A stretch of DNA of 64,000 nt from Bythopirellula goksoeyrii (GTDB taxonomy: Bacteria; Planctomycetota; Planctomycetia; Pirellulales; Lacipirellulaceae): contig NZ_CP042913.1 in the NCBI RefSeq assembly GCF_008065115.1, positions 656,338-720,337 of the forward strand, given 5' to 3'. Below the pieces are notes generated by a model. It searched no databases. It saw only the letters and a program-made list of their open reading frames with translations, and was not told where the DNA came from. Position 1 is the stretch's first letter; each line of letters opens with the position of its first letter. Shown here piece by piece: positions 54,149 through 59,067 of the stretch. A program made the translations under genes and the position numbers.

Positions 54149-54352
54149 ATGAGTATTGCGAAGGTAGTTACCGTCGTTTCCCAATCGGAAAAGAGTTTTG
54201 ACGATGCCGTCCAGGAAGGGTTGACCAGTGCGTCCAAGACCGTTCGCGGCATTAGTGGTATTAAAGTAGTCGATTGGACAGCAAAGGTTTCCAATGATAA
54301 GATCACCTCCTACAAGGTGACAATGGATATTGCCTTTGGCGTCGAAGAGTAG
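54149..54352 (+). CDS. Dodecin
   Basis: 67 residues from ATG at 54149, GGAG 7 bases upstream. Dodecin flavin-storage protein: SIAKVVTVVSQSEKSFDDAV, VRGISGIKVVDWTAKVSNDK and YKVTMDIAFGVEE; the Trp in VVDW is the flavin-stacking residue. Assembles as a hollow dodecamer binding FMN/FAD or CoA. Monocistronic. Confidence 0.93.
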   Translation: MSIAKVVTVVSQSEKSFDDAVQEGLTSASKTVRGISGIKVVDWTAKVSNDKITSYKVTMDIAFGVEE

Positions 54353-54384
54353 AAGCAGGCGCGAACGCAAGTCCCTGGATGCGA

Positions 54385-54414
54385 GCATGCCGGTAGGCTT
54401 AGGCAACCGGATGC
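54385..54414. terminator. Hairpin between dodecin and ATP-grasp genes
   Basis: GCAT-G-CCGGT at 54385-54394 pairs with ACCGGATGC at 54406-54414, one bulged base; between convergent genes. Confidence 0.45.
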
Positions 54415-54449
54415 GCCAAATATACCGAGAGCTTACGCAACCCTCTCGC

Positions 54450-55433
54450 CTAGATTCGCCAGAAGTCGCTGCTCTTGGTGGCGATTGATTCGATCACATC
54501 CCAGCGATTTTCACCCGTACGATCTGCCATGGGAATCGAATCGATATATTTAAGACGTGGCACGATACCTTCGCGATGGGCCAATTGGATTGCCAATCCC
54601 GGTCGTGCGTTGGCTTCCAATACCACGGGGCCCGTGTCAGCGTCGATTACAAAGTCGATCCCAACATAGCCCATCTCCAACGCGTCGCTCAGCTTCATCG
54701 CGCCTTCCAACACGTCCTTCCAATTGGGAAGTTCGATCCCCGCGATCGGAAAATTTGTGTCAGGGTGCATGCTGATGGCCCGATCGCGGCAGACGCCGCC
54801 ATACGTACGGCCCGTATTGAGTTCGATTGCCGCGGCGATGGCCCCCTGATGCAAGTTTGCCCGTCCTCCGGACATTTTTGTCGGCAGGCGGATCATGGCC
54901 ATCACAGGCACACCACGATAGAGAATCACACGAATGTCGGGAGTTCCCTCAACGGCAATGCTCTTGAGCAAGGGATGACTGACGATTCGCCGTTCCACGA
55001 TTACGGAATCTGCCTGACCTCCTAGAGAGTAAAGCCCTGAGATAATTGTCGAGAGGTGATGCCGGAGGTCAGTCCATTCAATCAGACGTCCCGAAGAGGT
55101 AAAGAAATTGTTGCCCAGCCGACCCGCGACGACCACAATACCGCGGCCGGCTGCTCCGCTCGACGGTTTTACAACGAACTCGGTACGATCCTCCACCAGA
55201 TCCAGGAACCGGTGGCACTCGCTGTGTTCTTTGATAATGAAATACGTTTCAGGAACCTGGATACCGTTGGCTTGGCAAATCTCTTTGGTAAGCAGTTTGT
55301 TGTCGACCCGCGGATAAAACGCTCGCGGATTGCTTTCCAGGATGATATCGAGATTGCGCTGGTTGATTCCGAGGATTCCCCGGCGCTTTAGCTCATCAGG
55401 CCAGGCCCAGAATCGATTCGAGTTGTTATCCAT
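54450..55433 (-). CDS. ATP-grasp alpha-L-glutamate ligase-like protein
   Basis: 327 residues from ATG at 55433 (MDNNSNRFWAWPDELKRRGI). ATP-grasp fold: GILGINQRNLDIILESNPR and YPRVDNKLLTKEICQ (family start), FVVKPSSGAAGRGIVV (P-loop-like ATP loop), VIVERRI, IRVILYRGVPVMAMIRLP, LHQGAIAAAIELNTGRT, and GIDFVIDADTGPVVLEANAR (metal-binding Asp/Glu/Asn). Related to RimK ligases that attach glutamate to protein C-termini; here the substrate is unknown. Next upstream on the same strand is the inactive transglutaminase-7TM gene, 194 bp away. Confidence 0.9.
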   Translation of the reverse strand: MDNNSNRFWAWPDELKRRGILGINQRNLDIILESNPRAFYPRVDNKLLTKEICQANGIQVPETYFIIKEHSECHRFLDLVEDRTEFVVKPSSGAAGRGIVVVAGRLGNNFFTSSGRLIEWTDLRHHLSTIISGLYSLGGQADSVIVERRIVSHPLLKSIAVEGTPDIRVILYRGVPVMAMIRLPTKMSGGRANLHQGAIAAAIELNTGRTYGGVCRDRAISMHPDTNFPIAGIELPNWKDVLEGAMKLSDALEMGYVGIDFVIDADTGPVVLEANARPGLAIQLAHREGIVPRLKYIDSIPMADRTGENRWDVIESIATKSSDFWRI

Positions 55434-55627
55434 AGCGGTCGATCTTGTTAACGGTCTGAAGCTGCAAGAGCAAAATGAATTATGCTTTGAGTGGGTGAGT
55501 GTGTCCGAAAACTCACGTTTCTGTCGTTTCAAGTTCAATTATCAAGTTTGACGTGGCGAAGAATTTGAGCTAGATCCCTCGGAGGACCTCGGGATGACAA
55601 ATCACCAACTCACCTACTCACCACCAC

Positions 55628-57193
55628 CTATTTCACCATGTCACGGAAGCGCCAAAGTTCTACCAGCCGATAACCACTGTATCGACCGATCCAGATGAAG
55701 GCGGCGATCGTGAAGAAATGCAACTCAGGATAGATCAGTAACAGGGCTCCAATTTGTTTCCAACCCAGAATCAAGTAGCAGCAGGCAGCCACGACGGCGG
55801 TACCAACCACCAATTGCATGGCGAACGCCATACCATCTTCTTCAGTGGTCACAAAATAGCGCTCGATCAGAGTTGTGAGAATAACCAACGGCAGCAACAC
55901 TGCTCGTACCCCGGAGATTGGATCAGCATAGTCGATCAGTGAAACTCCAAACACGATCAGCATGATAATCATCGTCAGTACAATACTGGAGCGAGGCACC
56001 ATCAACAGATGCAGACGATCCAACATTATACGGCCGAAGTAACCCGCTGTGAGTACGGCGATCAAGATCACCAAACTCGTTGCCAATTCAGCATAGATGA
56101 AACTCATTGCCAGCAGCGCGGGGGCGAAAGTGCCTAACGTCCGCATGCCAATGAGATTGCGGAATATGGCCGTGATGAGCGCTCCCAAGGGAAGCAACAA
56201 CATCAGCGACATAATTTCATGCATTTCAACCGGCAAACGTGTCAGGTCGAGTACTTGCGAAGGGCGGCGGACTTCTGCTTGCAGGACGTTGGCCGGAGGG
56301 GGCAATCGAAGAATCGTATATTTGGCCGATAAGTCTTTAATCCCTTCGCCACGAACAATCTCTTCGCCATCGTGTCGAATCGGCAGAAAATTGTAGGGCA
56401 TCTGACGGGCATGGCCGTAGGTCGGGTCAAACGGAACCCAGTGATGGCCGTAAAACACTTCGGCCCACACATGCGGCTTAGCCGAATCAGATTGGCGAAG
56501 CTCAAATCCAGTGACAAGACGTGCGGGAATTCTATAGGCGCGGCACAGTGTGACCAAGGTGCGAACACGACCCAAAGGTGTGGCTTGATGATTGGCTAGG
56601 GCGTATCCGACAGCATCGAAACCATCTGCGCTGCTCCCCGGCTTAAAACTCTGAGAACAAAAATCAAAAAGCTGCTGGACCAATTCACTATCGGTCAATT
56701 CGCCACGGGGAATCTGTTGCATGACCTCCCGCACATTGGCACCTGCGGTGTCGATCGTAGCATCGCTGCGCAAGAAACGGGATCTGGCAGTTGATGATAG
56801 GCCGGAGACTTGATGCTGTTCGTCCCAGGCATTTCGCGGTTTGAGTCGGATCTCGAATTCGGCACCCACTTGATAGTTTCCGGTAAGTTGAGTGGTTAGA
56901 ATCAACTCACGATTCTTGTTCAAGGGGGAGGTATAATCCTCGGCATCGAGATTGATGTGAGATTTTTCCTCCACTTCGATGATCGCTGCTGAGGAGTCTT
57001 GGTCCGGCAAGCCAACCCGCACCTCCGCCTCGGGGCTATCGACTTCGAACTTAATGTCGTAGGAGAGCCTCCACAAACTGTCTTGAAGCCCCTCCTGGAC
57101 CTCGTGCCTGGCCTGATAGCGTAGACTGAACGCCACGATCCCGAGGAGGATAAAGATGGCGGCCCAAATTTGACTCAAAACACGAGCACTCAC
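55628..57193 (-). CDS. Inactive transglutaminase fused to seven membrane helices
   Basis: 521 residues. N-terminal signal anchor (IWAAIFILLGIVAFSLRY), a periplasmic beta domain (about 30-165), then a transglutaminase-like domain (about 170-280): TLCRAYRIPARLVTGFELRQ keeps the helix after the nucleophile, KPHVWAEVFYGHHWVPFDPT keeps the His and Asp. Aligning the segment, the nucleophile Cys position is Pro (in ATPLGRVRTL), so it is catalytically dead, in line with the family name. The C-terminal part (about 325-510) has seven hydrophobic helices. Partner of ATP-grasp and zinc-protease families known to co-occur. Confidence 0.9.
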   Translation of the reverse strand: MSARVLSQIWAAIFILLGIVAFSLRYQARHEVQEGLQDSLWRLSYDIKFEVDSPEAEVRVGLPDQDSSAAIIEVEEKSHINLDAEDYTSPLNKNRELILTTQLTGNYQVGAEFEIRLKPRNAWDEQHQVSGLSSTARSRFLRSDATIDTAGANVREVMQQIPRGELTDSELVQQLFDFCSQSFKPGSSADGFDAVGYALANHQATPLGRVRTLVTLCRAYRIPARLVTGFELRQSDSAKPHVWAEVFYGHHWVPFDPTYGHARQMPYNFLPIRHDGEEIVRGEGIKDLSAKYTILRLPPPANVLQAEVRRPSQVLDLTRLPVEMHEIMSLMLLLPLGALITAIFRNLIGMRTLGTFAPALLAMSFIYAELATSLVILIAVLTAGYFGRIMLDRLHLLMVPRSSIVLTMIIMLIVFGVSLIDYADPISGVRAVLLPLVILTTLIERYFVTTEEDGMAFAMQLVVGTAVVAACCYLILGWKQIGALLLIYPELHFFTIAAFIWIGRYSGYRLVELWRFRDMVK

Positions 57194-57468
57194 GATGCTA
57201 AACCTTTAACCTGCCAGAGGTTGGATGTACTTTTTGAAAATGCTGGCGCAGCGACTGCGCGTGGCCAATCATAGTATTATAGTTCACTTGCTACGCGAGT
57301 TTGCCCCGTTTGTGCGGCTCAAAAGACATATTTTTGCGGTTCCTGAGGGTTGTTCCGGCGGTTCCCTTTCCGAGGGTTACCTGTAAGAATAAGGGGCTCG
57401 CAATGCTCTGAGCAGTGCGAAAGCAGTATCTCAACCTGAGCTAACTCACCCTGCGGAGACTATCGTCT

Positions 57469-58455
57469 GTGAGATCGAATTCAGCATCCATTTGCCTCAT
57501 GCAGTGCCTACCGCTTCAACGGTTCGGCCTGATGGTGCTTGCCTTGTTGCTTGCCAATGGAGTGGTGTTGCTTGATATGCGGCACGCCGTGTGTGCCACA
57601 GAGGAGGAGTCAACTTCTGAGGAGTCGCAATCTTCAACCGAAGAAACAGAGCCCTCAGCCGAAGCATCAGAGCCCTCAGCCAAAGAAGCAGAGCCAGCAG
57701 CAAAAGAGACCAAGAGCGACGAACCAGAGAGCGAACCCGAAGAGCCGCCCGAGAAGAAAGCTTCCAGCAAGAAGGCCAGTCAGAAATCAGAGGAGGCCGA
57801 GCCTGATTCGGACAAGGAGTCCGACAAGGAAGCCGAAACTTCGGATGAGAAGGCTTCAGACGAAGAGAAGAAGAAGCAAGAAGTTGAAAACGAGAAAGCA
57901 AAGGCCGAAGAAGCAGCAGGTGCAGAAGTCGAAGTAGTCGACGATTCGGAAGAAGAGGAGCCCGAGGAAACTATCGAAGAGGAACCTCCCGTTGTTGAAG
58001 AAACCGAAAAGGAAACCCCCAAAGTGGACAAGCGTGTGATTGGCGCCACCGCCACGATCATGGAAAAGAAGAGCGAACTGCTCTTTCGGGCAAGAGTTGA
58101 CTCAGGTGCCAAATCGTGTTCGTTGCATATCGAAGATATGAAGATCGAGAATGAGTCCGACAACATGGCCGACAACATCGGCAAAGTCGTGCGATTCAAC
58201 ATCAAGAATGGCAACAAAGAATCTCATTGGCTCGAAGCCAAGATCGCCGGCTATGTGATTATCAAAACCTCCAACGCTTCCGATGATCGCAAGCGACGCT
58301 ACAAAGTGCCACTCACGTTTCGTTACAAAGACTTTGAAAAGACCGTACTAGTCACCCTTAACAACCGCCAGCACATGGAGTTTCCGCTCCTCTTGGGCCG
58401 CAATTTTCTCAAAGGGGATTTTGTGGTTGACGTGGAAGTCGAGAACAATGATTGA
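57469..58455 (+). CDS. Secreted RimK/LysX-associated zinc protease homologue with acidic region
   Basis: 328 residues; GTG at 57469 has GGAG 10 bases upstream, an ATG at 57499 is the alternative. Signal helix around residues 18-36 (LMVLALLLANGVVLLDM) ending HAVCA. Residues about 43-185 are low complexity, dominated by Glu, Ser, Lys, Ala (e.g. TEETEPSAEASEPSAKEAEP). The C-terminal 140 residues are a retropepsin-like domain: FRARVDSGAKSCSLHIEDM (DSGA catalytic-type motif) and NRQHMEFPLLLGRNFLKGD. DUF785 proteins of this type are predicted ATP-dependent zinc proteases. Divergent from the TG-7TM gene (276 bp), so it belongs to the same functional set. Confidence 0.85.
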   Translation: MRSNSASICLMQCLPLQRFGLMVLALLLANGVVLLDMRHAVCATEEESTSEESQSSTEETEPSAEASEPSAKEAEPAAKETKSDEPESEPEEPPEKKASSKKASQKSEEAEPDSDKESDKEAETSDEKASDEEKKKQEVENEKAKAEEAAGAEVEVVDDSEEEEPEETIEEEPPVVEETEKETPKVDKRVIGATATIMEKKSELLFRARVDSGAKSCSLHIEDMKIENESDNMADNIGKVVRFNIKNGNKESHWLEAKIAGYVIIKTSNASDDRKRRYKVPLTFRYKDFEKTVLVTLNNRQHMEFPLLLGRNFLKGDFVVDVEVENND

Positions 58456-58569
58456 GCAATTATTGAAGGTTATTGCCAATTAGCTTCTGCGTCTCAATTC
58501 GACGTGTGGTAGATGCACTCCTATTCTCGCAGTGTTTCCTATGACCGCCGACGGCTGCAGTCGTGGCAA

Positions 58570-58605
58570 CCGTTGAGAATTGATAGTCCTTAGGCATCTC
58601 AACGG
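58570..58605. terminator. Hairpin between convergent genes
   Basis: CCGTTGAGA (58570-58578) and TCTCAACGG (58597-58605), 9-bp perfect stem with an 18-nt loop, between the protease and membrane-protein genes. Confidence 0.5.
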
Positions 58606-58638
58606 TAAGTATTTTGAACCAAAAACATTATGCTAAAG

Positions 58639-59067
58639 TCACTCGGCTTTGGAGCATTGATCGTATACGAAAACGCTGAGCCAACCGATCACTGCAGATG
58701 CAGCAATAAATATTATAAGCATCAACGTTGAATCTACATTCCCAATTATTGGTTCTTGATAGGAAGCGTCTTCTCTCAAGAATATCGTCAGGGCTCTTGC
58801 AGCAGTTGAGGTCCAGCGTAAAGCAGCTCCATAGACAAAAACGTTTTTCATTGACATCAGCAGCATTGCACCACAGAATCCTGCCCAATAGGCACGTCGC
58901 CTCCCGCTGTAACTTCCTGCTGCAGCTCCCGACATTACGATGATAGCTGTCCAGATGAATACTTGGATATCATCCGAACCGGTGTAGGCGGTCAACGTTG
59001 AACACCACAATGCTACCAATGTAGTTATGGCCAGGAGAGCCTTGATTCCAAACTGTGGTAATTTCAT
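58639..59067 (-). CDS. Small multi-pass membrane protein
   Basis: 142 residues. Hydrophobic segments at about 9-27 (KALLAITTLVALWCSTLTAY), 35-52 (VFIWTAIIVMSGAAAGSY), 60-80 and 112-132 (LMLIIFIAASAVIGWLSVFV). Start MKLPQFGIKALLAITTLVAL resembles a common planctomycete opening for short membrane proteins. Function unknown. Confidence 0.6.
   Translation of the reverse strand: MKLPQFGIKALLAITTLVALWCSTLTAYTGSDDIQVFIWTAIIVMSGAAAGSYSGRRRAYWAGFCGAMLLMSMKNVFVYGAALRWTSTAARALTIFLREDASYQEPIIGNVDSTLMLIIFIAASAVIGWLSVFVYDQCSKAE

Follow-up and report, generated by a model that had tools for sequence, protein, structure and literature searches.

A divergent RloABC-like gene trio with its own layout in the planctomycete Bythopirellula goksoeyrii

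We analysed a 64,000-nucleotide stretch of Bythopirellula goksoeyrii (contig NZ_CP042913.1, positions 656,338 to 720,337; hereafter the window), whose 6.47 Mb source genome is a single contig. Three genes lie between positions 54450 and 58455 of the window, and an earlier note on the same DNA had described them as an ATP-grasp ligase, a transglutaminase-like membrane protein and a retropepsin-like protease that form a known but poorly understood co-occurring set. All three open reading frames (ORFs) were found where it had placed them, and profile and fold matches bore out the three families. Because these matches make the genes relatives of RloC, RloB and RloA, which were named in Pseudomonas by Lormand et al. 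in 2025 (PMC12239564), the kind of system is already known; judged by its sequence, the trio is a divergent planctomycete branch of it with its own layout. The features are as follows.

54450–55433, minus strand: RloC-like ATP-grasp amino-acid ligase (PF14397, TIGR02291, weak match to RimK structures)
55628–57193, minus strand: RloB-like membrane protein with an N-terminal transmembrane helix, a beta domain, a predicted inactive transglutaminase domain and a multi-helix C-terminal membrane domain (PF14402, PF01841, model, 3isr)
56576–56578, minus strand: Pro206 codon at the presumed catalytic-Cys position of RloB (profile alignment to 3isr, alignment columns)
57194–57468, no strand: intergenic region between the divergent rloB and rloA
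57469–58455, plus strand: RloA-like retropepsin-like aspartic protease with a hydrophobic N-terminus (PF05618, fold matches)
57598–58017 (approximate bounds), plus strand: Glu-rich linker of RloA, from the hydrophobic N-terminus to the protease domain (Glu count)
58099–58110, plus strand: DSGA catalytic motif of RloA (sequence)

The possibility that the trio is a single operon was ruled out, because rloA lies on the opposite strand and is divergent from rloB and rloC. The rloB–rloA intergenic region contains a minus-strand TATAAT within TATTATAG at 57275–57282, and ATTATAG was common to four of eight aligned intergenic stretches; neither is claimed as a promoter. A consensus promoter scan gave no site in this region, and four promoter-like sites against 3.4 expected across 54300–58700.

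Pfam profile searches matched RloC to PF14397 (E=5e-79), and its TIGR02291 score of 351.8 bits was above the cut-off of 314.2. RloC also weakly matched the RimK structures 5zct and 4iwx (E about 6e-4) over a span including R-x-N-L-H-x-G and E-x-N-A-x-P-G. With TIGR00768 it reached 58.6 bits, and the genome scan gave pieces scoring 24.6 and 21.4, all under the cut-off of 143.4. The longest RloC frame, from a TTG start, extends to 55538. The ATG at 55433 is probably the start, because 10 of 11 relatives aligned only from residues 26–41 of the longer frame; in the eleventh (G220; handles in G and L denote genomes and loci) the alignment began at residue 12, and the aligned stretch contains one TAA.

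RloB matched PF14402 (1.6e-49) and PF01841 (5.3e-13). Its structure model (mean predicted local distance difference test score, pLDDT, 78.5; predicted template modelling score, pTM, 0.56) contained an N-terminal helix, a beta domain, a transglutaminase-like domain and a helical C-terminal part. The earlier note had counted seven helices; the multi-helix membrane part was recovered, but seven is the number in the family name; hydropathy gave one N-terminal and six C-terminal segments, and the model had more C-terminal helices. The soluble part was related by profile to the transglutaminase-like structures 3isr and 6g49, and by fold to 3isr (E=1.5e-12). Profile alignment and alignment columns placed Pro206 at the Cys of the C-R-D stretch in 3isr, which we take to be the catalytic Cys, consistent with the suggestion that Pro replaces it here. 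Unlike in 3isr and 6g49, this column held Cys in none of 18 aligned RloB proteins (nine Pro, three Ala, three Ser, two Val and one Ile), suggesting that the transglutaminase is inactive through loss of its catalytic Cys. His241 and Asp256 are kept in the window protein; the His was found in 12 of the 18, including all 11 aligned Lacipirellulaceae proteins (the fragment in G227 was not aligned), and the Asp in 16. The N-terminal domain PF14400 had no match in the window RloB and matched four of the 18, that of locus L082 among them, while PF01841 matched 15. From the His/Asp retention and this PF14400/PF01841 pattern, the window RloB is placed in a subtype nearer to active transglutaminases. 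It scored 159.7 bits against an NCBIfam RloB cut-off of 900, and was 91% identical to RloB of Bythopirellula polymerisocia Pla144 (Lacipirellulaceae, Planctomycetota).

RloA matched PF05618 (2.7e-15) and carries a hydrophobic segment at residues 19–37. The protease had been described as a secreted DSGA-type enzyme; the motif and the family were confirmed, and secretion is predicted from hydropathy only. A model of the protease domain (mean pLDDT 89.2) matched Legionella Lpg0085 (2pma, 3.3e-10), RloA2 (9g59, 2.1e-8) and RloA (9g58, 3.1e-8); six chains of these entries spanned E values from 3.3e-10 to 6.2e-8, followed by human immunodeficiency virus protease chains from 2.1e-3. RloA therefore joins a retropepsin-like fold to a D[ST]GA motif. 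A profile of 16 RloA relatives reached 9g58 at 2e-20, compared with 0.03 for the window domain alone. Every NCBIfam score lay under its cut-off (21.7 of 280 bits for RloA, 25 of 250 for RloA2, 32.4 of 210 for RloA3 and 35.5 of 200 for RimB). Four symmetric polyglutamate contacts, K46, R92, R114 and R137, are reported for P. aeruginosa RloA (PMC12239564), and we located their counterparts through the P. fluorescens RloA sequence (9g58), counting residues from the catalytic Asp. The position of K46 is Arg in the window (Arg in 13 and Lys in 3 of 16 aligned proteases), and those of R114 and R137 are Arg in all 16. The source genome has four PF05618 genes, all RloA-type by score and none RimB-type, and the other three (L075, L076 and L077) lie away from rloBC.

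The linker of the window RloA, counted over 145 residues, contains 33% Glu. Its best 100-residue stretch (35% Glu) ranked first among 308 ORFs of at least 150 amino acids from 464 kb of the source genome (the window plus twenty 20-kb stretches), where the next value was 25% and the 99th percentile 20%; this rank is descriptive only, because the linker was tested on account of being striking. RloA was also one of two ORFs with EEEE among the 308. Acidic linkers (16–24% Glu) were found in RloA of G219, G225, G217 and G224. The Glu-rich tail lies outside the core system, because the linkers are short in G231–G234 and those of the three source-genome paralogues contain 2–9% Glu.

The description of the set as poorly understood has been overtaken, since the 2025 report names the system and gives two RloA crystal structures and mutant phenotypes (PMC12239564). 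RloA was shown there to cut polyglutamate in vitro. A triple rloA1-3 mutant failed to grow without salt and was rescued completely by deletion of rloB or rloC, which rescued its other defects only partially; the phenotypes touch biofilm, cell shape and cell-wall antibiotics (PMC12239564). Shewanella vesiculosa is reported to produce more vesicles when a gene for an inactive transglutaminase-7TM protein is disrupted (PMC12096838). The Pseudomonas set resembles the window trio in its clustered secreted retropepsin-like RloA, inactive transglutaminase membrane protein RloB and ATP-grasp RloC, and in having several RloA paralogues per genome, with three redundant proteins in P. aeruginosa (PMC12239564) and four PF05618 genes here. 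It differs in being an operon, whereas the layout is divergent here and in eight other readable Lacipirellulaceae loci. In addition, the window RloB core keeps His and Asp without PF14400, RloA has a Glu-rich linker and no domain disulfide, and the source genome is without a RimB-type protease by PF05618 score. The RimK–RimB ribosome modification system likewise pairs an ATP-grasp glutamate ligase with a retropepsin-like protease that processes polyglutamate, but is described as cytoplasmic and without a membrane transglutaminase (PMC12239564), while the window RloA has a hydrophobic N-terminus and RloC falls below the TIGR00768 cut-off. Because the NCBIfam cut-offs, PF14400, the operon layout and the disulfide all set the trio apart, we filed it as a divergent RloABC-like branch and not as the named Pseudomonas proteins. 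Proteobacteria account for 96% of the RloB sequence matches in that report (PMC12239564), and there was no planctomycete RloABC among the matches listed in open-access literature, which is weak evidence.

The proposal that the three families co-occur was examined in 39 related genomes, including the source genome. RloC was sought at E<=1e-15, short transglutaminase-like matches below 31 bits were dropped from the RloB search, and the limits of 150 bits for RloB and 80 bits for RloA-type PF05618 were set after the scores were seen. RloB was present in 12 genomes (full length in 11, a contig-end fragment in G227), and RloC in exactly the same 12 (Fisher p=2.6e-10, a value that overstates independence because the genomes are related). 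The identities of RloB and RloC to the window proteins ranked together across 10 genomes (Spearman 0.98). In all nine loci with enough contig (the window, G219, G225, G217, G233, G224, G232, G234 and G231) RloA lay divergent beside RloB; in G220, where a contig ends, no more than an acidic RloA-like start was present (E=1e-3), and the contigs of G218 and G227 ended too soon. PF05618 matches below 80 bits, 31 copies in all, occurred in 11 of the 12 genomes with RloBC; among the other 27 genomes, four had such matches (G216, G228, G121 and G241; Fisher p=8.5e-6). The results showed the expected co-occurrence in relatives. If the three genes were instead chance neighbours with ordinary separate roles, the split transcription and the lone RloA-type proteases in relatives without RloBC (2 of 27, or 4 of 27 under a looser score rule) would be accounted for; the identical distribution of RloB and RloC, the divergent RloA in every readable locus and the varying flanking genes make this very improbable. 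A contig scan with six peptide patterns confirmed 1 of 46 candidates and is no guide to absence elsewhere.

A search of the trio loci for six other window genes found two of them in the close relative G219 and a HemE-like gene in the distant L080, and none in the remaining loci. Within the few kilobases around the trio, where neighbours seen at a single locus were left unannotated, no further gene occurred in more than two Lacipirellulaceae loci. Among the neighbour ORFs linked between loci, L110 and L115 shared a DinB-like pair, and L112 and L114 a pair that Pfam did not match. One ORF in L082 was paired with an EF-G-like gene of L109, a RimK-like ORF in L114, some 4 kb away from rloA, was grouped with L079 and L080, and another linked pair included an ORF antisense to rloA in L115. 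The linking used the longest non-overlapping ORFs only, which displaced some real genes, and gene order was taken from a separate reading of the loci instead. These neighbourhoods bear on the idea that the ATP-grasp protein adds an amino acid to an exported glycan or lipid, that RloB serves in export or attachment and that RloA cuts a protein of that machinery and not polyglutamate. The Pfam name of PF14397, 'sugar-transfer associated ATP-grasp', and the biofilm, cell-shape and antibiotic phenotypes in Pseudomonas (PMC12239564) with the vesicles in Shewanella (PMC12096838) speak for it, but the lack of any such recurring neighbour and the kept basic contact positions of RloA speak against it, and we regard it as unlikely.

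Across 216 genomes of the phylum, seven had PF14402 above 150 bits, and all seven also had PF14397 above 250 bits; five weak PF14402 matches of 60–80 bits (G020, G025, G035, G169 and G179) were dropped from this count. PF05618 was found in five of the seven. One further genome, G142, had PF14397 at 141 bits without RloB. The order RloA–RloB–RloC in one direction was seen in G072, G088 and one G195 locus (L081, L082 and L083). None of 14 control genomes matched PF14402, with the window gene itself as positive control. PF14401 had no match in the source genome, a result made uninformative by its absence from the same 14 controls.

Other arrangements were observed in the phylum. G195 carries, besides its one-direction rloABC (L083), a second rloBC copy (L084) with no RloA detected in 15 kb. 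Rlo and Rim genes stand together in L080 (G071) and L079 (G065), where rloBC has a RimK gene (PF08443) and a gene for an AstE/AspA-like hydrolase (PF24827) nearby; L080 additionally encodes a RimB-like protease whose C-terminus carries a lysine-rich repeat. An 815-amino-acid ORF in G020 (L120:4521–6968) contains a 7TM_transglut domain (PF14402, 1.9e-19) and a D-Ala-D-Ala-ligase-like ATP-grasp domain (PF07478, 1.2e-34). This is an apparent natural fusion, in a single genome with 6% contamination, and as such would support a ligase and a membrane domain acting together. A 204-amino-acid ORF in G169 (L085:6238–6852) begins as a PF05618 protease and ends as a 7TM_transglut domain, perhaps through a deletion or an assembly collapse.

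The gene identities, the conserved clustering, the loss of the RloB Cys and the retention of the RloA catalytic Asp with three basic positions that match substrate contacts of the Pseudomonas model were observed directly, and a largely inferred mechanism can be built on them. On the cytoplasmic side, RloC would use ATP to build a short acidic chain from glutamate or a comparable acidic amino acid, and this chain may be free or on an acceptor. RloB would present this product or pass it through the inner membrane, as a putative exporter, and its pseudo-transglutaminase domain may bind the chain outside without catalysis. RloA proteases would cut the chain in the periplasm and hold its level safe, and their loss would then be harmful only with RloB and RloC active, as in Pseudomonas. 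We lean slightly towards this mechanism of cytoplasmic ligation, presentation or export and periplasmic cutting, which agrees with the genetics reported for Pseudomonas and with the residues that the window proteins retain.

Several observations weigh against it. The available part of the Pseudomonas report does not name the natural substrate (PMC12239564). By our reading of the profile alignment, the window RloA has Gly opposite R92, the fourth contact, and with one Cys in its 155 residues the protease domain can form no internal disulfide, unlike the reported periplasmic orthologues. G216 and G228 carry an RloA-type protease without RloBC. In the phylum, G065 and G191 had no PF05618 match (both are fragmented, 84 and 90% complete) and the PF05618 neighbour in G071 adjoins RimK and looks RimB-like, so that a secreted-type RloA stands beside RloBC in only four of the seven genomes (G000, G072, G088 and G195).

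Alternatively, RloA may recycle a product that stays free, either an acidic oligopeptide or stored glutamate, with a role such as that of an osmolyte or counter-ion. This agrees with the hypo-osmotic phenotype in Pseudomonas, where free polyglutamate and a glutamate osmolyte were raised by the authors (PMC12239564), but the window holds nothing that separates a free from an attached product, and we give this alternative a small chance. The suggestion of a peptide or amino-acid tag added and removed at the cell envelope stands in part: it fits the Pseudomonas genetics, the cleavage of polyglutamate by RloA (PMC12239564) and the kept basic residues, but no natural substrate was seen here or named in the accessible part of that report. 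A further idea, which we hold to be improbable, is that RloA of this genus carries its own substrate or pseudosubstrate in the form of the Glu-rich tail. The tail would sit in the basic channel of the RloA dimer and would be displaced or cut off only once acidic product made by RloC and RloB accumulates, so that the protease would sense its substrate by competition.

Collectively, the planctomycete branch, with its co-inherited RloB and RloC, different layout, His- and Asp-keeping pseudo-transglutaminase and Glu-rich tail, may offer an independent comparison for the conserved core of the mechanism and for the substrate of the RloABC kind of system.

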